A stretch of 36,018 nucleotides of DNA from a virus. The stretch covers positions 1 through 36,018 of IMG/VR virus record IMGVR_UViG_3300001458_000059; one strand, given 5' to 3'. This document shows, piece after piece, positions 2,723 to 30,178 of this stretch. The translations under genes and the position numbers were made by a program. The stretch's first letter is position 1. Every line of letters starts with the position of its first letter. Below the pieces are notes generated by a model. That model did no database searches and was not told the origin of the DNA. It was given only the letters and a program-made list of their open reading frames with translations.

Positions 2723-3738
2723 CAGTAAGTCCAGTCGCCCGCTTCAAGACTGAGCAGAAAAAATGCGTTCCAGTTCATGCGCCACAAGACATGCCGCTTA
2801 CTTGATAAATAAACATCTCCGCAAACCCCGTCCGCCATTTTCAACAAGTCGGGCAACGCTTCTGCAACATACGCCGGACGAGTAAAGAGTAAGTTCGTTT
2901 TGAGTTGCGGCACAACCGATCGCTGCCACGCCGCAGCTCGCACAAGAGACGCACCGCCCGATGACACAAAAACAGAAACCGGCGTGACATCAAATTCAAC
3001 AACAGCATCAAGCGAGCTCGGATAACTCAATAATGATCCGACATTCACGCCAGACAACATAACGTAATGATTGCCCGATGCTGGGGCACCGGACTTATCA
3101 CGTGATACTGTACCGATATCCGATCGCGCGCCGCCTCCTCCGAGCGAGTTTAAATCGCCCCAAATTCCGATCGCGCCGCCAAAAATGCTGAAATCTCCCA
3201 CCTCGCCGCTCAGCCCGCGAACATCACGAAAACGACCGAACGACAGTGACGCGCCTGAATTGAATCCGTACGACACATTAATCGTGCGCAATGACTCGGC
3301 CGATGAAGTCATCATCATAAATACTGCATCGTCATTAGCAACGACACACCAGCCGGAAACCGCTGTCAGTAATGATGACGCGGGGCGCTGCAACACAGCA
3401 GACGATGAATCCCAGACTGTAGTATTTGATATTTCAACGTAGCCAGATCGGCCATTCACCGGTGTTGTAGCATCAATCATTCCGTCCGCGACAAACAAAA
3501 ACGGATGATCATTACTCGCTGCGCGCACAATACCCAGCACCCCGGTTTGACTGCTATTAATCAGCGTCAGCCAGCCGCTGTTTACCCAGTCATCATAAAC
3601 AACGCTCCAGCCAGCAGCGGGTTTGCTGCCATAACCCGTTACAAGGCACGCAAGAATTATTTGATAAAACGCATCTTGTCGATTAGTTAATACCGGCGCG
3701 CCGGGGTCGTCATAGTAATAAACCGTTGGTGCTCCCAT
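2722..3738 (-). CDS. Tail-tip or receptor-facing tail protein, 338 aa
   Basis: This is probably a virion protein of the distal tail. The N-terminus carries the motif YYYDDPGAPVLTNRQDAFYQ, then ILACLVTGYGSKPAAGWS. A very similar opening (a 'GAPVL...ILxACLVxGYGxKxAAGW' pattern) is familiar from phage tail and tail-fibre proteins of proteobacteria. The remainder is serine/glycine-rich with short hydrophobic strands, including a glycine run near residue 200 (SLGGGGARSD). It follows the 1179-aa tail protein with a 1-bp start/stop overlap. It is the best candidate in the window for a receptor-contacting component, because no classical tail fibre gene is visible. That role is inferred. Confidence 0.65.
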   Translation of the reverse strand: MGAPTVYYYDDPGAPVLTNRQDAFYQIILACLVTGYGSKPAAGWSVVYDDWVNSGWLTLINSSQTGVLGIVRAASNDHPFLFVADGMIDATTPVNGRSGYVEISNTTVWDSSSAVLQRPASSLLTAVSGWCVVANDDAVFMMMTSSAESLRTINVSYGFNSGASLSFGRFRDVRGLSGEVGDFSIFGGAIGIWGDLNSLGGGGARSDIGTVSRDKSGAPASGNHYVMLSGVNVGSLLSYPSSLDAVVEFDVTPVSVFVSSGGASLVRAAAWQRSVVPQLKTNLLFTRPAYVAEALPDLLKMADGVCGDVYLSSKRHVLWRMNWNAFFLLSLEAGDWTY

Positions 3739-7277: not shown

Positions 7278-7654
7278 TATTCTGGTTCCACTGTAATGAG
7301 GTGAATTTTCAGGCGGTAAGGTTCATCAGCGCCGGGGTTTTTGTTCGGGAAAAATGGTTCGGCATCTACGCCGCCTGCTGTCAGATCAATAACAACGGTG
7401 TGGGTCGCACCGTCATTGAGCGTTAAAACGCGCGACGTATCCGGCGCTGTCTCCAGCAGCGTACGCAGTGCTGCAAGCTCTGTGCGGGTTATTACTCCGC
7501 CTGCGAGCGTAATGGGGCGACCATAACTGAGCGGAGCGATCTGAATATCAAGCGCGCCGTTAACCGCGCGCTGATGCGATGCAGCCCAGGGCTTCCACGC
7601 TTGTTCGTTTTCCCAATACAGGGTTTCGGGTAATTGAGTGGCATCTATCAGCAT
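7277..7654 (-). CDS. Tail protein following the tape measure, 125 aa
   Basis: A small soluble protein (begins MLIDATQLPETLYWENE) encoded directly after the tape measure. Its stop overlaps the next start as TAATG. In siphoviruses the gene after the tape measure usually encodes a distal-tail or minor tail protein that starts tip assembly. The position and the beta-rich sequence with 'ITLAGGVITRTELAALRTLL' and 'DGATHTVVIDLTAGGV' fit such a role, but no family could be named with confidence. No cysteines, signal peptide or membrane segment are present. Confidence 0.7.
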   Translation of the reverse strand: MLIDATQLPETLYWENEQAWKPWAASHQRAVNGALDIQIAPLSYGRPITLAGGVITRTELAALRTLLETAPDTSRVLTLNDGATHTVVIDLTAGGVDAEPFFPNKNPGADEPYRLKIHLITVEPE

Positions 7655-10600
7655 TATGATCGCGCTCCGAATTCTTCCAGGGCATCAAGAAGGTCGTCTT
7701 TATTGTTTGCCAATACTTCTACACGCCTTGTGCCGATTTTGACTTCTACGGTTTGTACTTTCTGGGTCTGGCTTTCAGACGTTGTGCTGCTCTGGCGCTG
7801 GGCCGTTTGCCGTTTTTCTTCGCGTGATTGTTTAAGTTCGTCAGACCTGACTTGATCAAGCAGTTGCAGCGCTTTTGTGTAGTACTGAATGGTCTGCTGA
7901 TCATTCCAGGCACGGGCTTCTTTCAGCTTTGCTTCGTACTCTTCTTTTTTGTTTTTATATTGACGTTCAGCAATGGCTTCCTGATTGCCGTTAAGTCGAT
8001 CCAGCTCATCCTGCAGGCCATCAACAACGGATTTTGCTGTAGCACGCATCGACTCCAGTTTTTGGTTTGCAGAATCCAGCGCAGATTGAAGCTGGCTTAA
8101 GTCTTCTTCGCCCAGCAGGTTCATCCATTGCTGAGCATTTTTGGCTTGATTAATAAACGCCTGATTAACTCCCTGTCCGGATTCCAGTGCGTTGATATAT
8201 TCCATCGCTTTGAGCTTTTGCTCCTGGTATGCGATCAGCGTTTCGTTTTTCGCCTGGATAACGGAGTTTTTAAAACGGTTTACGCCGGTCGGGTCGAATA
8301 CCTGAAGATTATCAATGCTGACTTTGCCGAGTTCTTCACGAGCGGCTGCAATGGATTGCTGCAGCGCTTCCATTTCGCTGACCGGGCCAGCTGTACTGAT
8401 GCCGAGTTTATTATCGAATGCCGCGCGGGCCTGCTCGCTGAGTGCGGACATTTCATCACGCACAGATTGGAACCAGGCAGCGAGGCTTGCGCCTACGGCC
8501 TGCACGTCGCGCTCAGAATCTTTCGCAGCAGCGCCTACATCACGGGTTGCTTCTGCGGCTTTCTTTGCGCCTTTTTCGGTTTTGTCTCCGGCTTGCTCGC
8601 CAGCTTCGCCCGCATCGCTCTGTACTCCGATCAGGTTTACCAACTCATCCGATAATCCCAGCATCGCAGCACGCACTTTCAGCTGCTCAATGACAACCGA
8701 TCGTTGCCCCTCAGATACATGCTCATTAGCCGCAATGGCAGCTTGCGCATATGCAAGAAATGCGGCTTTTTGATCGGCCAGAGGGGCGTTCATTTTCTTC
8801 AAATTATCAACCAGGACTCCGAGCTTTGATGCAGAATCCTGTAAGCTTTTTTGGCTCGTAATGCCAAACTCACGCATGGCATCTTCAGCGTCTTGGATGC
8901 CAGGCGTTGTACTATTGATGATCGCTTTTTTTACTTCAAGTTGCTCGTTGAGGCGTTCAATTTGAGCTGCACTTATTTCACCGTTGCTGCCCATTTCCTT
9001 AATTTTGGTTTTTATCTCTTCGAGAGCAGAGATGCTGTCGGCCTGATTGAGCGCGCCACGAATAGCGATTTCCAGAGCAGTCATACGTTTCTCGCCGGTC
9101 ACCCCCATTGAATCAAGAGTAACGGCGATATTGTCGAGCTGGGTGATGGCTTCCTGAGCTGCCGGGCTTATTTCTCCCAGCGCAGATTTAGCACTCACAC
9201 CAAGCTCGTCGAATGACTTACTCAGAATCAGTTCGTTGTATTCTTTGAGTTTTTCGGCTGACAGCTTGCCGCTTTCAAATGCAGACCGAAGTCCCGCTGC
9301 GAACTTACTCAGATCTGCTGCTTTACTTTCATTGATCCATTTTTTTAGCTCTTCAGTCAGGATGCTGGCATTACCAGACGCTTCATCAATCTGCTTTGTA
9401 AATGCAACGACGCCAGAATCGGATGTCAGATCCAGCTGGCTGAACTCTGTGCGAATCTTCTGCGCAGCTTCCGCACCTTTATCGCCCGCATCTTTAAGTG
9501 CAGATCCTGTATTTACGGCAGCGTCAGCCGCTTTTTTCTGCACATCGATACCGGCTTCTACTTCAGCATAGATCCGCCCATATACGACCTGAATATTATC
9601 CAGTTCGGCATTGAAGCGCGCCCATGCATCACTGGCATCGGATGGGTTGGATATAACATCCCAGGCCAGTGTTGCTGCAGCGGCTAATTGTGAAAATGCA
9701 GCGGCGAGTTCAACACCCAGCTTACGCGCCCACACAAAATTTTCGGCCAGCTGGTCGCCAATATCCCGGCCGATTTCCCAAGCTGACCACAAGCCGCCGA
9801 TCGTTCTGATTGCTCCGCCCAGGAGGCCCACCTGAGCAGTGAGTTCTTTAATGGATAATTTTGACAGCGATACTTCTTTTCCTATATCGCCGAAGGCTTT
9901 AACACCAATAATGCGGAGCGATAAAAACACCAGGCGCAACGCACCCGCCGTAACGGCCACAGTTCCGAGTGATGTAGCGATCGCGGCAATGGATGGATTG
10001 GCCTCAACAAAGTCTGCCAGCGCTCGTGATACATCACCGATGCCCTCAGCAGAGGCGCGGATGATCGGCAAAAAAATGGTGCCCAGATTAATGGCAATTT
10101 CCTGCAGACCGTTCTGCATTAACTGGATCTGCTCCTCGGTCGTTTCCATTCGCGCGGCAAACTCACGCTGCATCGCGCCAGCGGTATTACCCGTATTGGT
10201 AACACGGGCGAGTGATGCGTCGTATTTATCCAGACCATTTAATAGTCGCGCGATGTCGTCTTGATACTCTTGCCCAAATAAGCGAGTGAGTGTTTCTGCC
10301 CGTGATTGGTCATCCAGTTTGCTGAGCGTGCGCAGGAATTCAGTCAGGGCTTGCTGTGGATTACCCCGGATATCGTCGGCCAGTTGCTTCGCTGATAAAC
10401 CAATCCCCTCAAGGGCGCCTTTAAACTCTGGCCCCTGCACATTGGCCGTTTGCAGTTTGCTTAACAGGGCATTAATACCGGTACCGGCGACTTCGCTTTT
10501 CGCTCCCATCTCAATCATGGTGGCGGCTAAAGCGGCAGCCTGGTCAGCGGTTAATTTAAACTGACTGGCTGTACCACCGATACGGGTAAGCACATCAAGG

Positions 10601-11802
10601 ATATCCGCTTCACGGGCGGCGGTCGTGTTGCCCAGGGTATTGATAGCATCGCCCAGGGCTTCGACGTTCTCGATCGGGATGTTGAAAATGTTGCTGAGTT
10701 TTGCAACTGCATCACCGGCTTGCTCTACCGATAAATCAAACGCGACGGACATCTTCGCTGCCAGCTCAACGAACTGATCCAGCTTATCGATCGGCACGCC
10801 CAACTGACCGCCAGCCGCAGCAATTTTAGCCAGACCCTCAGCGGTAATTGGCAGCTCACCGGACATTTCTTTAATGCGCCCGGTCAGCTGTTCAAACTGA
10901 TCGTCGGTACCATCAACCACTTTACGAACGTCGGCCATCGCGCTTTCAAAGTCGATGGCGTAGCCAGCAATGATACCGATAGATGCACCCGCACCGGCGA
11001 GAGCAGCGATACTGCCTTTGGCGTTCTGTAACGATTCACTCCAGCCGTTGGTCTGGTGCTTCAGCTCGCGGATGCGTTCTTCTGTTTTCAGCGCCGCTTG
11101 TGCCAACTCTGCCTGAGTCAGCTTTCCTGATTTTTTTAAGCGTTCATACGCTTGTTGCGTCGCCTCTATTTCTTGTTCAATTTCGGCGTGTGCTTTAAGG
11201 CCCAGCAACTGGCGATCAATTTCTTCTTTCGACAGTTTCTTCTGTGTTTCCGCCGCTGCAGCCGCTGCTGTAGCTGCTTCTTTCTGACGTAGAACTTGCT
11301 TCTCAAGACCGGATGACAGCAGATCAACCCGGCTTGCAAGTTCGGTGGTGCTTTTGTTTGTGCGGATCTGATTGTCGGATAACGATTTGGTCTCAATACC
11401 CGCCGCTTTAAGCTCCGCACGCATAGACTGCACAGATAAGCGGCTGTCCTGGTAAGCAGCTTCAGCCTTCTTAACCGCTTTTCGTGCGTTCTCAAATTCA
11501 CGCACCTGGGCTTTTGTTGGTTCCTCAGTTTCATTCAGTGCTTTGCCGAGTGCCTGGGCTTTTTGCTGCGCTTCGGTAAGCGTTTCGGCGGAATCTGCGA
11601 CGGCCTGTTTGATCTTTTTGAATTGATCAATCAGTCCTCGCTCGGTTGATACTTGCTGCAGCGCAGATTCAAGATCGCGCGCGGCGTCTTCCCATTGCGC
11701 CGTCTCAACGCCAGCCTCTTTTAAACCTGCTATAGTGGACTTTATGTTGCTCAAGCCATCGGCTGTGGCTTTGATTTTTAACGCGAGTTCGAGGTCTTTC
11801 AT
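7654..11802 (-). CDS. Tail tape measure protein, 1382 aa
   Basis: The tape measure sets tail length and is threaded through the tube during assembly. Residues 1-260 are charged, heptad-rich coiled coil (many E/K/Q/A). A glycine/alanine-rich hydrophobic segment follows (SIAALAGAGASIGIIAGYAI). The conserved tape-measure core of the TIGR01760 type then begins with FESAMADVRKVVDG near residue 285 and includes AGTGINALLSKLQ. Further hydrophobic helices near 570-650 and a long C-terminal coiled coil complete the usual plan. By the usual 0.15 nm per residue rule it implies a tail near 200 nm. The ATG at 11802 overlaps, on opposite strands, the ATG of the antisense gene at 11801. Confidence 0.93.
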   Translation of the reverse strand: MKDLELALKIKATADGLSNIKSTIAGLKEAGVETAQWEDAARDLESALQQVSTERGLIDQFKKIKQAVADSAETLTEAQQKAQALGKALNETEEPTKAQVREFENARKAVKKAEAAYQDSRLSVQSMRAELKAAGIETKSLSDNQIRTNKSTTELASRVDLLSSGLEKQVLRQKEAATAAAAAAETQKKLSKEEIDRQLLGLKAHAEIEQEIEATQQAYERLKKSGKLTQAELAQAALKTEERIRELKHQTNGWSESLQNAKGSIAALAGAGASIGIIAGYAIDFESAMADVRKVVDGTDDQFEQLTGRIKEMSGELPITAEGLAKIAAAGGQLGVPIDKLDQFVELAAKMSVAFDLSVEQAGDAVAKLSNIFNIPIENVEALGDAINTLGNTTAAREADILDVLTRIGGTASQFKLTADQAAALAATMIEMGAKSEVAGTGINALLSKLQTANVQGPEFKGALEGIGLSAKQLADDIRGNPQQALTEFLRTLSKLDDQSRAETLTRLFGQEYQDDIARLLNGLDKYDASLARVTNTGNTAGAMQREFAARMETTEEQIQLMQNGLQEIAINLGTIFLPIIRASAEGIGDVSRALADFVEANPSIAAIATSLGTVAVTAGALRLVFLSLRIIGVKAFGDIGKEVSLSKLSIKELTAQVGLLGGAIRTIGGLWSAWEIGRDIGDQLAENFVWARKLGVELAAAFSQLAAAATLAWDVISNPSDASDAWARFNAELDNIQVVYGRIYAEVEAGIDVQKKAADAAVNTGSALKDAGDKGAEAAQKIRTEFSQLDLTSDSGVVAFTKQIDEASGNASILTEELKKWINESKAADLSKFAAGLRSAFESGKLSAEKLKEYNELILSKSFDELGVSAKSALGEISPAAQEAITQLDNIAVTLDSMGVTGEKRMTALEIAIRGALNQADSISALEEIKTKIKEMGSNGEISAAQIERLNEQLEVKKAIINSTTPGIQDAEDAMREFGITSQKSLQDSASKLGVLVDNLKKMNAPLADQKAAFLAYAQAAIAANEHVSEGQRSVVIEQLKVRAAMLGLSDELVNLIGVQSDAGEAGEQAGDKTEKGAKKAAEATRDVGAAAKDSERDVQAVGASLAAWFQSVRDEMSALSEQARAAFDNKLGISTAGPVSEMEALQQSIAAAREELGKVSIDNLQVFDPTGVNRFKNSVIQAKNETLIAYQEQKLKAMEYINALESGQGVNQAFINQAKNAQQWMNLLGEEDLSQLQSALDSANQKLESMRATAKSVVDGLQDELDRLNGNQEAIAERQYKNKKEEYEAKLKEARAWNDQQTIQYYTKALQLLDQVRSDELKQSREEKRQTAQRQSSTTSESQTQKVQTVEVKIGTRRVEVLANNKDDLLDALEEFGARS
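11728..11736 (+). promoter_or_regulatory. Extended -10 promoter candidate for the antisense gene
   Basis: TGCTATAGT matches the extended -10 consensus (TGnTATAAT) with one mismatch. No convincing -35 hexamer lies 16-18 bp upstream, which is typical of extended -10 promoters. Transcription would start near 11743, about 58 nt before the ATG at 11801. The element lies inside the tape measure coding sequence on the opposite strand, so it could be fortuitous. Confidence 0.4.
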
Positions 11803-12028
11803 GATTCTATCTCAGGATAAAGCGGCAAAATGGGAAGGCTGGCTGGGTATTTTTCTGGCCATCGGTTTTCCGGCACTGATGCTGAAGCTGGACGCATCTG
11901 GCATTGATACGGGTGAGGCGTTTGTTAAAGTCCTGGGCTTAATCATGATCGCCTCCGTTTGCATCGGGTTTATTGCCCTTGTTGTGGCTGTTCTCGGCCG
12001 CATCGGTGCATTTTTATTCGGTAAATAA
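11801..12028 (+). CDS. Antisense small membrane protein (moron-like), 75 aa
   Basis: A plus-strand gene inside an otherwise minus-strand head-tail operon. It begins MILSQDKAAKWEGW and has two hydrophobic helices: GIFLAIGFPALMLKL (about 15-30) and a longer one, VLGLIMIASVCIGFIALVVA (about 44-63). A short charged loop with DASGIDTGE lies between them and the end is FLFGK, so it should be an inner-membrane hairpin. A GAGG ribosome site lies 6 bp before the ATG, an extended -10 lies about 65 bp upstream, and a hairpin terminator follows. The minus-strand reading of this DNA is low-complexity and unlike a protein. This is the signature of an independently transcribed moron, possibly a lysogenic conversion or exclusion protein. 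Its function is unknown. Confidence 0.7.
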   Translation: MILSQDKAAKWEGWLGIFLAIGFPALMLKLDASGIDTGEAFVKVLGLIMIASVCIGFIALVVAVLGRIGAFLFGK

Positions 12029-12043
12029 CTCCTGTTTATCCTT

Positions 12044-12068
12044 AAAAAAGGCGGCATCCAGCCGCCTT
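12044..12068 (-). terminator. Rho-independent terminator between tail tube and tape measure
   Basis: A perfect 8-bp stem, AAGGCGGC (12048-12055) and GCCGCCTT (12061-12068), encloses the 5-nt loop ATCCA. Read on the minus strand the stem is followed by a run of six T, a good intrinsic terminator for late transcription leaving the tail tube gene. On the plus strand it is followed by TTATTT, so it may also end the antisense gene transcript. Its strength against the phage's own late operon implies attenuation, antitermination or a further promoter. Confidence 0.75.
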
Positions 12069-12097
12069 ATTTCGTTGCATCCCTGCGGTCATCCCTG

Positions 12098-12871
12098 TTA
12101 CGCCACTTGATTTACTTCGTAGAACGCTGATTCTCCGGCACCTTTGCTGGTGTCTTTCAGCACTTCGCCTTCGATCGGGACGTTCATCATTGACGTGCTT
12201 TTAAGCGCCAGCTCGTTCACGATGCCCGGCGACACTTTCCAGATATCGACAATGACCGGCTTGCCGGAGTCCGCTTCATTCAGACCATCGAACACCAGGC
12301 CAAACTGCTTCTTGGCTTCGGTCAGTGGCTTCACTTTGTTGTATTCGCCATAGCTGTACGAGACCAATACCGGCAGACCAACGGTGGGATCCGGCAAGGC
12401 GGCAATGGCGGTTGCCAGATCACCGGTTTCAGCAACCAGCGCACCGGCTCCCGTTACTTCATATCCGGTGTATGTGGTTTGACCATCGGCACTGGTTACC
12501 ACCACGCTGGATGCACCGGGGTGATCCAGGCGAATAAGGCCGCCGGTGTGCGCTTTTTTCGCTTCGTCAGTTACCGTGCCGCTGGCAAAGGTTGTGCGTG
12601 AGCCGCGCGTGGCCATCGCGATGTTGTCGGCGTTGATGTCGTACAGCACAAAGGCTACGCCGACCGATTCAATGCGGCGCAGTTCTGAGTGAGTGCCGCC
12701 GCCCAGCCCATCGTAGTCCGGGGTTTTTTCAACCTGTTCGTTGTGGGTGATTTTCAGATCTGAGGTATTGCCAACATAGAAACGCGGGCCGTCCACAACA
12801 CTGAGATCCTGCAGATACACACGGCCGACGTTGGCCATCGGTGAAAATACTTTTACGCGCTGAGTCGTCAT
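12098..12871 (-). CDS. Major tail tube protein, 257 aa
   Basis: This protein forms the hexameric rings of the non-contractile tail tube. It opens MTTQRVKVFSPMANVGRVYL and carries DGPRFYVGNTSDLKITHNEQ, a common beta-strand opening of siphophage tube subunits. A C-terminal segment, KKQFGLVFDGLNEADSGKPV, continues into VDIWKVSPGIV and resembles other tube proteins ending in a conserved strand pair. Length (257) is normal for the class. It lies downstream of head-completion genes and upstream of the tape measure, as expected. Its ATG overlaps the stop of the upstream 59-aa gene (TAATG). No sheath gene accompanies it, supporting siphovirus morphology. Confidence 0.85.
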   Translation of the reverse strand: MTTQRVKVFSPMANVGRVYLQDLSVVDGPRFYVGNTSDLKITHNEQVEKTPDYDGLGGGTHSELRRIESVGVAFVLYDINADNIAMATRGSRTTFASGTVTDEAKKAHTGGLIRLDHPGASSVVVTSADGQTTYTGYEVTGAGALVAETGDLATAIAALPDPTVGLPVLVSYSYGEYNKVKPLTEAKKQFGLVFDGLNEADSGKPVIVDIWKVSPGIVNELALKSTSMMNVPIEGEVLKDTSKGAGESAFYEVNQVA

Positions 12872-16756: not shown

Positions 16757-17107
16757 TTACAGGAGCGACTGTTGCGCCTCAGAATTGATTTCGTAATTCA
16801 CCCGGCGCAGCACTGCATAAACCCATACTTTGCTGACTTTGTACTTTGCCGCCAGCTCTGCGTGATTGTCGCCGGTAAAATCCTGGTAAATGGCGAGGTC
16901 ACGCTGACGCAAACGCATGCGTGCGCCTTTACCGAAATACAGCTGCTGCCCGGCCCAGGCTTCGGTCAGGGTGTCGATGATTTCCAGTGCCATGGTGTCG
17001 GCCTCTTCGTCATTCAGGCCTGCTCGGCGAGCTGCTGCAGATGCAGTGTCGAACAAATCGGTCAGCATCTCCGGGGCATCACGCATTAATTTACGGGCAG
17101 CGGTCAT
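16757..17107 (-). CDS. mor: Mor-family middle/late transcription activator, 116 aa
   Basis: A member of the Mor/C family, which binds dyad sites upstream of weak promoters and recruits RNA polymerase. The N-terminal dimerisation half includes RKLMRDAPEMLTDLFDTAS and DEEADTMALEIIDTLTEAWA. It is followed by the hallmark 'GGQQLYFGKG-RMRLRQRD'-like stretch (here AGQQLYFGKGARMRLRQRD) and a C-terminal helix-turn-helix with HAELAAKYKVSKVWVYAVLR. An AGGAGG ribosome site precedes the ATG by 5 bp. It is the last early/middle gene and adjoins the late control region, so it is the presumed switch from early to late expression. Length is close to Mu Mor (129). Confidence 0.93.
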   Translation of the reverse strand: MTAARKLMRDAPEMLTDLFDTASAAARRAGLNDEEADTMALEIIDTLTEAWAGQQLYFGKGARMRLRQRDLAIYQDFTGDNHAELAAKYKVSKVWVYAVLRRVNYEINSEAQQSLL

Positions 17108-21776: not shown

Positions 21777-22946
21777 TCACACCGCCTTAATTACGTCGGA
21801 AGTAACACGCGGCGCGCCGATATCGGCGGCCATATTCATGGCGGCAATCAACTGGTTACCGATCGCCAGCGGATACAGCAGGCTGATGGCACGGCTGGCT
21901 TTATCGCGTGCTGGTACGGTCAGTTTTGCGCGCAAGGCATCGATAGCGGCAGGCTCAATAATGTCGCTCAGCTGCTTGCCCGCCGCTTGCAGACGATGCT
22001 GCAGATAGCCTTCCAGGTGGTTGTCCATCGGGTCGAGGGTAATCAGCTCAATGCGCTGCACCACTTCGCGGACTTCGCTGCGGTTTTCGGCCAGCTTCTG
22101 GGCCAACTCTGTCTGGCCGATCAGCACAATGCTGAGCAGGCGGTTAAAGCCGTCCTCTAATTCATAAAAGCGTTTCAGATGCTTCAGGGTTGGAATGCTC
22201 AGGCCATGCGCTTCTTCGATGATCAGTACATGGCGATTACCGGCGCGGCGTGACTCTCGCAACACCCGGTGCAGTTGGGCATAGCGGGCTTCGGCGGTCT
22301 GGCAGATGCGGGCTTGTGGATCGACGGTGCGAATAATGGCTGCGGCAATGTCGGTGGCCTTCAGGGTTTTGCCTTTGTTGTCATTGTCTTCAAGCCCCAG
22401 CACATAGGGTTCAATAACGATGATGGGCAGGCTTTCACGGTTGATACGATCCAGCAGGTCACGGCGCAGTGTGCTTTTACCCGCGCCGGATTCACCGCAC
22501 ACGGCGATGAAGCGCTCGCTGTTAATGGTTTGTGCCAGGGCGGCACGCACGTAGCGCACGTCTGGGGTGTCGTATACCTGGGCAGCGTCGGTCAGCTCAC
22601 CGAATGGGTCGGCAAATAACTGAAAGTGCTTTTTAGTGAGTGGATACAAAGGTTGTTTACGCAGTAACATATCGTTCTCCTTGGGTGATTCCGCGCTTCC
22701 TTTTTCGTTGTGGGGCGCTTTGTCGTTGGTGGCAGGGTCAAACAGGGATGCCAGCGTTGGCGCGCTGGCACCTCTTTCCTGCAGCAGCCTGGTAATACGC
22801 TGCTGCAGCTCTTTCTTGTCACGGCTGGCTGGCCAGTGTCCGTGGTTACAGATAACGCTCATGGCGGAGCGGCCAATGCCCACATGGGCGGCCAGCTCTT
22901 GCCGGGTAATGTTTAACGCTTCAAGAGCGGCGTTCAGCTTCAGCAT
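21777..22946 (-). CDS. B: Transposition target/ATPase protein B (AAA+), 389 aa
   Basis: The MuB partner of the transposase: an AAA+ ATPase that binds target DNA, activates transposase and gives target immunity. The N-terminal helix-turn-helix (RQELAAHVGIGRSAMSVICN, 15-34) is the MuB DNA-binding domain. The P-loop is GESGAGKST (151-159) and Walker B is HVLIIEEAH (239-247). A sensor-like VLIGQTELA follows, and the C-terminal helical region is of the type that contacts MuA. An AAAGGAGG site sits 6 nt before the ATG. The gene overlaps the end of A by 7 bp. The 389-aa length is larger than Mu B (312) and near the length of homologues in siphovirus Mu-like phages. Confidence 0.95.
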   Translation of the reverse strand: MLKLNAALEALNITRQELAAHVGIGRSAMSVICNHGHWPASRDKKELQQRITRLLQERGASAPTLASLFDPATNDKAPHNEKGSAESPKENDMLLRKQPLYPLTKKHFQLFADPFGELTDAAQVYDTPDVRYVRAALAQTINSERFIAVCGESGAGKSTLRRDLLDRINRESLPIIVIEPYVLGLEDNDNKGKTLKATDIAAAIIRTVDPQARICQTAEARYAQLHRVLRESRRAGNRHVLIIEEAHGLSIPTLKHLKRFYELEDGFNRLLSIVLIGQTELAQKLAENRSEVREVVQRIELITLDPMDNHLEGYLQHRLQAAGKQLSDIIEPAAIDALRAKLTVPARDKASRAISLLYPLAIGNQLIAAMNMAADIGAPRVTSDVIKAV

Positions 22947-24670
22947 GCGCTGCCTCCTTTAATGGCTTTGCTATCGCTATTCCACTCCTGTGCAAGCTCA
23001 CTGATGGCCGACTCTGGTACGCCATCGGGGAAACGGCGGGTGATTTCGGCATAGTGGGCTGGTGTCCATTCGATCTGTTGTTTGAGCTGCAGAGCCGCTT
23101 CTGCATGGGTCAGCATGCGGTCTGCAATACGGCTGTCTTTTGTTGCTGGGTGTGCGACACCACGGCGCGGCAATACAGCAACGTCGGGCAAATTCTCCAT
23201 GTGTTTGTATGGGTCGATGCGGCCGCCGAACGGAACGGTTTTAGCTTTGGCTGCCTGCTCCGCTTGTTCGTCGGTGTCCACCTCATAGATGCGGCGCTGA
23301 ATGGCCTTGCGGTTGGTGTCCAGCTCGGTGTCAGCCATGGGTTTGAATTCGCGGCCAATGAGTGGCGCGTCGGCTTCAAAGCCGTGTTCGTCTTTCTCAA
23401 CCTTCCGGATCGGCTGCAGCAGTTCCTGACCATCCACCCAGGTGGCGACATAGGCGGTATCTGGTTGCAGCGGATTGACGGTGATGGCCAGCTTTTCACC
23501 GATGCGAACACCGTGAATACCGGATACGTCGTACAGGCAGCCTTTAAATGACACGCGCAGATCGTCGCGTACTTTCTTCTCTTCCGGTTCACGGGTAAGC
23601 AGTTCGCGGGCTAAATCCACATCGACAATGCGCAGCTGGAACTGGGTGATTTCCATCCAGACATTCAGACGGGTTTTTCCGTGGCGGCTGTGCTTTTGTG
23701 TTGAGTTGTACCAGCGGCAGAACTGGCGGGCTTTTTCGTTAATCCAGTCGATATTCGGGACGTGAGCAAACTTAAAGCCGACCTCGAACTTGGTTTCGAC
23801 AATGTTGTGGTGAACCTCGACCTGTCCGGTGGCGCGGGCATTGCCCACCGAGTGAACAACCGGGTTAATGCTCAGGGCGCGCAGGAAGCGTTTAAAGGTT
23901 TTGGTCGCGGCTGAACCCGGATCGTAGTACAGGTGAAAGGGTACGCCGTACAGGGCTTCGCCTTGTTTTTCGCGCATGGCTTCAAGCAGGCTTTCGCCCA
24001 GGTTGGCAATACTCTCGCCACCGGCTACGTACCAGCAGAAAACAGCGCCGCTGGTGTGGTCGGTAATCACATAGCGCGTGAGGCGCTGGCGTTTGATTTT
24101 TTCAAAATTGCCGGGTTTATTTTTGTAGAACTCTCCGGGGGCCATGTCTTTCAGGCCGTCTTCCGGTACATAGAATAATGTGCTGATAGAGGCGTCGATT
24201 TCCCACACGTCATTCGGATGAGCGCTGCGCTGCTGACGGCTGGGTGCCGGGCGGCGCAGCTGATCAGGATGCAGGCCGTACTGGCGCAAGGCTCTGGCAA
24301 CCGCATTCTCGGACAGTGGGAAAAACTCGCCGGAGGTTTCATCCACCCGGCCCGCTGCGATCATGCCGTTAGCGCGCAATACCTCCAGCGCACCGCGCAC
24401 GGTGGTCAGCTTTTTATTGTTGGCGCGGTAGCCCTGCATCATGTACGCGCTGATGGTCTGGGCATCGGCCAATGACAACACCCTATTGCCAGCATCGGTG
24501 CGTTGCTTGCGGCCCTTTTTAAGGCCCAGCGCTTCCAGCTCGCGGTACAGTGTTGCCATAGAAACCCCCAGGCGTTCCGCCAGGTCTTTTAGTATTGGTT
24601 GCTTTTGGCCATGCCCGGCGGCTTCGGCAGCCCGCCAGGCATCGACCAGCATTTCAGCGGGCAGCGCCAT
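22940..24670 (-). CDS. A: DDE transposase A (MuA type), 576 aa
   Basis: This catalyses cutting at the phage ends and strand transfer for replicative transposition. An N-terminal winged-helix-like region (LKDLAERLGVSMATLYRELE) is followed by an rve-type catalytic core with Asp159 (NDVWEIDAS), Asp250 (YYDPGS) and Glu285 (ATGQVE), the DDE triad with 34 residues between the last two. A beta-barrel domain (RVSFKGCLYDVSGIHGVRIG) and a C-terminal B-contact region follow. The ATG has a GGAGG site and lies 1 nt after the stop of the upstream gene. All catalytic residues are present, so the phage should be transposition-competent. Confidence 0.96.
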   Translation of the reverse strand: MALPAEMLVDAWRAAEAAGHGQKQPILKDLAERLGVSMATLYRELEALGLKKGRKQRTDAGNRVLSLADAQTISAYMMQGYRANNKKLTTVRGALEVLRANGMIAAGRVDETSGEFFPLSENAVARALRQYGLHPDQLRRPAPSRQQRSAHPNDVWEIDASISTLFYVPEDGLKDMAPGEFYKNKPGNFEKIKRQRLTRYVITDHTSGAVFCWYVAGGESIANLGESLLEAMREKQGEALYGVPFHLYYDPGSAATKTFKRFLRALSINPVVHSVGNARATGQVEVHHNIVETKFEVGFKFAHVPNIDWINEKARQFCRWYNSTQKHSRHGKTRLNVWMEITQFQLRIVDVDLARELLTREPEEKKVRDDLRVSFKGCLYDVSGIHGVRIGEKLAITVNPLQPDTAYVATWVDGQELLQPIRKVEKDEHGFEADAPLIGREFKPMADTELDTNRKAIQRRIYEVDTDEQAEQAAKAKTVPFGGRIDPYKHMENLPDVAVLPRRGVAHPATKDSRIADRMLTHAEAALQLKQQIEWTPAHYAEITRRFPDGVPESAISELAQEWNSDSKAIKGGSAC

Positions 24671-29395: not shown

Positions 29396-29663
29396 GCACG
29401 ATCTCCGGTTCTGAATTATGGACGGTTGGGTCTCTGATTCGTGTCAGGCTTTTTTCGGTGTACTCCCGGCCTACCCAGGCACCCAGAATACCCACGGCCG
29501 CCAACCCAAAATCAGCGGCGTTCATATCCGGGATTATCCCAAAGGGGGTGGTCAGCCCTGCGGCCAGAAACTTGATGATGAGCACCAGCCAGCTGATGGC
29601 CACAAAAAATAGCGTAACGCTTTGCTTTCCGCGTGCATCGCACAGGGTTGGTACTGTTCTCAT
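29388..29663 (-). CDS. Holin-like membrane protein, 91 aa
   Basis: Two hydrophobic helices are visible: SVTLFFVAISWLVLIIKFLA (about 15-34) and AADFGLAAVGILGAWVG (about 49-65). A basic C-terminal tail follows. The size, two-helix topology and location between endolysin and Rz identify a holin-type protein that forms the membrane lesion. The start overlaps the stop of the endolysin as TAATG. The N-terminus is charged and cytoplasmic. Confidence 0.8.
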   Translation of the reverse strand: MRTVPTLCDARGKQSVTLFFVAISWLVLIIKFLAAGLTTPFGIIPDMNAADFGLAAVGILGAWVGREYTEKSLTRIRDPTVHNSEPEIVRE

Positions 29664-30178
29664 TATTTGCTCCGCTTAACGATAGCCAGCGCTTGCTCCT
29701 GAGTATGGAGACCTACCACGTACACCGTTTTGGGCTTTCCCCAGAGCTTCGGCACTTTGACTGCGGTTAATACCTGGCGGCGTGCCTGCCCCCGACGCAG
29801 TGGCGCTGATATGTGCACCCATTCTCCGAATTCCAGAATCATTTGGTCGTAGTCGACACGCCCCATGATGTCTTCGGCTAATTGCATCGGGGTAATACCG
29901 GCGGCGGTTATGTCGGCCGCCAATCCCTGTATGTGCTGAGAGGTCGGTACACCGCCAATTTTTTTATTAACGGCAGGGCTTCGGTAACCCGACGAAACGG
30001 TAATAGGCCGACCTGTTAAGGCGCGTACAGGTTGCAGCACTTCGTTACACAGGCGATGTATTCGGGTGTAGATCACGCCGCCGATACGCACGCTGTTGTC
30101 CAGGCCATACCGCGCAGCCGTTTGGCTGCGGGTAAATTCGTCCAGGTAAAAGTTTTCTGATAGTTGATGGCGATCCAT
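29663..30178 (-). CDS. Endolysin, peptidase M15-type, 171 aa
   Basis: A peptidoglycan-cleaving L,D- or D,D-peptidase of the M15_3 class: SSGYRSPAVNKKIGGVPTSQ, then HIQGLAADI with zinc ligands His82 and Asp89 and His122 in EWVHIS. An N-terminal binding-like segment (MDRHQLSENFYLDEFTRSQT) leads in and a C-terminal basic tail follows. The start at 30178 has AAGGGGGAT upstream. No signal peptide is seen, so it depends on the holin for export. It is the first gene of the leftward lysis operon, facing away from the divergent packaging operon. Confidence 0.9.
   Translation of the reverse strand: MDRHQLSENFYLDEFTRSQTAARYGLDNSVRIGGVIYTRIHRLCNEVLQPVRALTGRPITVSSGYRSPAVNKKIGGVPTSQHIQGLAADITAAGITPMQLAEDIMGRVDYDQMILEFGEWVHISAPLRRGQARRQVLTAVKVPKLWGKPKTVYVVGLHTQEQALAIVKRSK

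Follow-up and report, generated by a model that had tools for sequence, protein, structure and literature searches.

We identified a recurrent slot for antisense genes at the start of the tape measure protein (TMP) gene of phages. The DNA studied here (the window, an IMG/VR virus record of 36,018 bases from a Mu-like transposable siphophage) is one example of it. The slot is occupied in the window by a moron, a small accessory gene that runs against the tail operon and whose product is a predicted two-helix membrane protein. The earlier note, which described this one gene from the sequence, was right but understated the observation. We propose, with a probability of roughly 0.55, that the moron is expressed from the prophage and blocks TMP-dependent DNA entry in the manner of HK97 gp15, that is, that it mediates superinfection exclusion.

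The window encodes a transposase (phrog_310, 22940-24670), a Mor-like late activator (16757-17107) and an endolysin (29663-30178). The plus strand carries the terminase and portal genes, the minus strand most of those for head and tail. The minus-strand genes include those for the major tail tube protein (12098-12871, minus strand; Ig-like domain, phrog_807) and for the TMP (7654-11802, minus strand; 1382 aa, PhageMin_Tail, phrog_28), separated by a gap of 295 nt. The tape measure gene is the determinant of phage tail length.

The moron is a plus-strand open reading frame (ORF, 11801-12028) of 75 aa (MILSQDKAAKWEGWLGIFLAIGFPALMLKLDASGIDTGEAFVKVLGLIMIASVCIGFIALVVAVLGRIGAFLFGK) with two transmembrane helices. 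In the AlphaFold2 model, residues 2-32 and residues 37-73 each form a long helix (pLDDT 78); a two-helix hairpin was predicted for five homologues. A GAGG ribosome-binding site lies within TMP codons (11791-11794, plus strand) with a spacer of 6 nt; it is kept in a relative, L006, and GAGG is likewise found in L028. A single CATG (11800-11803) holds the ATG of the moron on the plus strand and that of the TMP on the minus strand, so that the two genes overlap divergently at their starts. The membrane protein, its ribosome site and the overlapping starts are thus all as the earlier note had described them. That note had named in advance the absence of homologues with the same frame as evidence against the gene, and such homologues were found in L003 and L007 (97% identity to the window protein), L117 (60%), L119 (34%) and, more weakly, L036. 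The ratio pN/pS is 0.11 between the window and L003 and 0.35 between the window and L117, and dinucleotide shuffles of the window region yield a comparable antisense ORF next to the TMP start in 1.4% of cases. We conclude that ORF 11801-12028 is a real accessory gene at the junction of tail tube and TMP. Representative morons had no match above the cut-off in Pfam, PHROGs, NCBIfam or PADLOC, where we found weak domain matches only, and a structure search with the predicted hairpin returned nothing below E 2.7. GenBank phages contained no homologue of the window moron and none of the L098/L074 family, and in scans of genome contigs neither the window moron nor the tail tube protein retrieved a relative.

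The gene had also been credited with its own extended -10 element, and the sequence in question (TGCTATAGT, 11728-11736, plus strand) is present within TMP codons 23-25. Taken alone the motif is not significant, because TGNTATART occurs once in the 36 kb of the window against 1.3 occurrences expected by chance, and a search for a -35 element found none. Conservation among relatives is more informative. The -10 is kept in the window, L024, L041 and L028 (identical in L041 and L006, TGTTATGAT in L028) and lost in the moron-less L039 and L040, which have ATT or ATC at the corresponding codon, so that in this clade promoter and moron have been gained and lost together. The -10 uses the rare isoleucine codon ATA (25 of 438 Ile codons). 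The TMP N-termini of the window, L005/L006/L041 and L028 lineages are only 45-54% identical, and the -10 codons are nevertheless kept. Sites scoring at least 10 were found at 4 of 42 loci, compared with 0.13% of control windows; many morons outside the clade of the window have no recognisable -10 or terminator. An antisense moron with its own promoter, as first suggested, is consistent with the existence of relatives with and without the gene, with a -10 that accompanies it and with purifying selection on its frame.

The terminator claimed for the moron requires a different reading. The perfect 8-bp hairpin is present between tail tube and TMP (12048-12068) and would act as a bidirectional terminator, but it did not originate with the moron, because its better T-run points towards the tail genes and because moron-less relatives have it too: L039 and L040 keep a GGCGGC..GCCGCC hairpin before the TMP. 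The L005/L006/L041 group has the same hairpin as the window. It is shared with the tail operon and probably belongs to it. More broadly, this junction has a GC-rich hairpin, its T-run oriented in the tail direction, whether or not a moron is present (window, L039, L040, L120 and L122); the hairpin probably attenuates transcription and so reduces TMP expression.

Loci for the survey came from scans with the TMP of L028 (80 loci) and with that of the window (20 loci); a scan with the TMP of Pseudomonas phage Bise yielded few. As a moron we counted any antisense ORF of 35-110 aa starting with ATG, with at least two hydrophobic (transmembrane) segments and no more than 45 nt away from a possible TMP start. 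Such ORFs occur at 41 of 82 non-redundant TMP loci; for the other gene starts of these loci the count was 2 of 465. When upstream gaps were matched (120-400 nt), the counts were 36 of 46 TMP starts and 0 of 90 other starts, and dinucleotide shuffles of the same regions gave 0.27% per locus on average. The exact CATG shared by both starts was found in 23 of the 41 moron-bearing loci.

Including that of the window, the 42 morons fall into 22 sequence families (E<1e-4). In 16 within-family pairs pN/pS ranges from 0.11 to 0.79, and the frames in the tail direction are mostly interrupted by stops; by these substitution patterns the moron frames are under purifying selection. Among close relatives, L005/L006/L041, whose tail tube is 98% identical to that of the window, have an unrelated hydrophobic antisense ORF of 49 aa at the same CATG, and L028 has a third antisense moron, of 51 aa. 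The tail tube-TMP junctions of L039, L040, L120 and L122 are without a moron, with gaps of 109 and 112 nt in L039 and L040. Two tandem antisense membrane ORFs precede the TMP in L053 (about 2891-3356) and L069; the distal ORF of the pair is almost the same as the only moron of L125.

The identity of the moron follows that of the TMP. The TMPs are mosaics of three blocks (N-terminal, middle and C-terminal) that have been exchanged independently, as seen among the window, L041, L117, L119, L028 and L039. The middle block of the window TMP (9223-11217, minus strand, about residues 196-860) contains all three of its hydrophobic segments (265-283, 615-633 and 699-717) and is common to L117/L119/L036, not to L041. 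From about residue 190 onward the window TMP is 60-70% identical to those of L117, L119 and L118/L036; the N-terminus is unrelated and the morons are homologous. The window and L041 share the tail tube (98%) and the N-terminal (54%) and C-terminal (81%) parts of the TMP, and differ in the TMP middle and in the moron. In all 52 pairs of homologous morons the TMP middles are homologous as well, while N-terminal homology is absent in 10; these 10 pairs seem to go back to two exchanges, one separating the window from L117/L119 and one separating L091 from its family. The pattern suggests that the moron is matched to the TMP middle. Yet L063 and L091, with TMP middles 76% identical, carry different morons, the partial Mantel correlations are 0.34 for the middle given the N-terminus and 0.41 for the N-terminus given the middle, and a Fisher test of middle against N-terminus on the discordant pairs gave p=1. 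Because neither test separates the middle from the N-terminus or the whole TMP, the safe statement on these alignments is that moron identity tracks TMP type. Plain linkage of neighbouring DNA would also give much of this association.

Superinfection exclusion by the moron is well motivated by its position, its predicted membrane topology, its association with TMP type and its restriction to temperate phages. In contigs of 30 kb or more, a marker of temperate lifestyle (an integrase or a Mu-type transposase) was found in 22 of 23 that bear a moron and in 10 of 16 that do not (Fisher p 0.013); the contigs are not independent, so this bias is supportive only. The moron would be transcribed from the extended -10 inside the 5' end of the TMP gene, in the direction away from the TMP, which would allow the prophage to express it at a time when the late tail operon is off. 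Its product would then insert into the inner membrane as a two-helix hairpin, where it may meet the TMP of a related phage that is entering the cell. That TMP has to engage the inner membrane for DNA passage, and contact with the moron protein would block DNA entry as gp15 of HK97 does. We infer each of these steps: expression in the lysogen, membrane insertion, TMP contact and exclusion.

Among the alternatives, the moron might serve its own phage as a membrane partner of the TMP in folding, tail assembly or DNA delivery, perhaps in place of the missing tail assembly chaperones. The tight placement at the TMP and the association with TMP type would fit this role, as would the junction of this clade, which has no chaperone gene. 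In the window we found none between tail tube and TMP (11803-12097), in agreement with the earlier note, and no same-strand ORF of the G/GT type with a -1 frameshift was found there. The same chaperone-less junction, however, occurs in L028 (3758-3994), L039 and Vibrio phage 1.055.O, moron-less members included: L039 and L040 have it without a moron, and Vibrio phage 1.055.O has neither chaperone nor moron, whereas Bise has both. The moron is moreover oriented against the late operon, and we regard service to its own phage as rather unlikely. A membrane protein of the lysogen with some other role (in host surface or physiology, in exclusion of unrelated phages, or as a holin-like or toxic protein) seems unlikely to us as well. 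Small hydrophobic proteins of many unrelated families, with a temperate bias and weak domain matches only, would fit it, but it leaves both the slot at the TMP and the association with TMP type unexplained. We rejected a holin as the main idea, since the endolysin is encoded elsewhere in the window.

A purely regulatory element, in which antisense RNA over the TMP start and the hairpin limit TMP expression and the peptide is incidental, is in our judgement improbable. The transcript would indeed cover the TMP start codon, and the hairpin, which is present without the moron too, would attenuate tail transcription. Purifying selection on the peptide and the retention of two-transmembrane proteins across 22 families speak against it, and moron-less relatives manage without an antisense element. 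Very improbable, finally, is a chance ORF, or a true gene on the other strand. The sole ORF in the tail direction at the junction (81 aa, 11812-12057) is open together with the moron frame in both the window and L003, and the third codon positions of the two frames coincide, so that substitutions between the window and L003 cannot tell them apart. This ORF begins inside the hairpin, however, and is not conserved in relatives: in L005/L006 it meets a stop after four codons, and in L117, L119 and L036 the tail-direction strand has stops in all frames. We rejected it as a chaperone for the same lack of conservation. Chance is excluded by the slot survey, the shuffles and the gap-matched comparison. 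A small tail-direction ORF (MTKRVRIENADTGSDK...) was also noticed at the same junction of the moron-less L120 (about 2738-2930).

Extending exclusion by the window moron to the other loci, we suggest more tentatively, and at somewhat below even odds, that the tail tube-TMP junction of temperate phages is a general, previously unrecognised exchange slot for antisense genes of inner-membrane exclusion proteins matched to their own TMP, and that through dozens of such small, unrelated proteins phages tell one another's injection machinery apart by TMP type. If so, the exclusion gene of a temperate phage would be expected just before its TMP gene. Many exclusion proteins that lack annotation (22 families in one survey) could be located by this simple rule, each paired with its TMP. 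The way in which TMPs open the inner membrane, and its blockage by prophages, could then be tested with many natural cognate pairs.

The closest functional parallel is gp15 of HK97, for which we used GenBank record NC_002167 and PMC10883804. In the GenBank record gp15 has 62 aa and lies directly before the TMP. It is a predicted inner-membrane protein, and HK97 hybrids with the tail tube and TMP genes of HK022 escape exclusion (PMC10883804). Like the window moron, it is a very small, accessory, predicted inner-membrane protein located just before the TMP and beside a terminator in a temperate siphophage. Exclusion by gp15 depends on tail tube/TMP type (PMC10883804); here moron identity tracks TMP type, though the tests did not separate the block responsible. 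The arrangement differs: gp15 is on the strand of the tail operon, after frameshifted chaperone genes, whereas the window moron is antisense, its start overlaps that of the TMP and chaperones are absent. The two proteins gave no alignment with E <= 100. The principle is also supported from lambda-like phages, in which a TMP region at about residues 300-400 correlates with, and appears to set, the inner-membrane protein that is used; the defence protein SNIPE contacts the TMP (PMC13190303).

Other exclusion systems share part of this design. Ltp of TP-J34 and Sie2009 of Tuc2009 are membrane-associated prophage proteins that block DNA injection; the TMP is the target of Ltp, and exclusion by Ltp is overcome by TMP changes (PMC10883804). 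Unlike the window moron, both belong to phages of Gram-positive hosts, their location at a TMP junction is not established and the window moron had no family match. Ltp is a surface lipoprotein. SieA of P22 is likewise an inner-membrane exclusion protein that blocks DNA injection (PMC10883804), but it targets short-tailed phages and their ejection proteins.

Antisense genes among tail genes have precedents too. HK97 gp23, annotated as 'reverse moron product' (NC_002167; 6716-6976 in our locus L014), is likewise antisense to its neighbours, but lies between tail genes I and J and not at the TMP. Bise encodes an antisense membrane protein of 96 aa (WWQ71680.1, annotated only as a hypothetical protein) between chaperone and TMP, with its start at a CATG. 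Bise differs in being a contractile-tailed Mu-like phage with a chaperone present, the sequence is unrelated, and some 130 nt separate its CATG from the annotated TMP start downstream, unlike the shared CATG of the window. In the Bise sequence (L018, 23312-23441) a TMP-like N-terminal frame runs from the CATG at 23313 in a different frame from the TMP start annotated at 23441, perhaps because of a misplaced annotation or an indel in the record. Our literature search found no description of an antisense gene at the TMP and nothing pairing 'reverse moron' with the tape measure. In layout, the gene described here is a variant of the TMP-linked exclusion moron not met before; it would be one in function too provided that the protein excludes as we infer.
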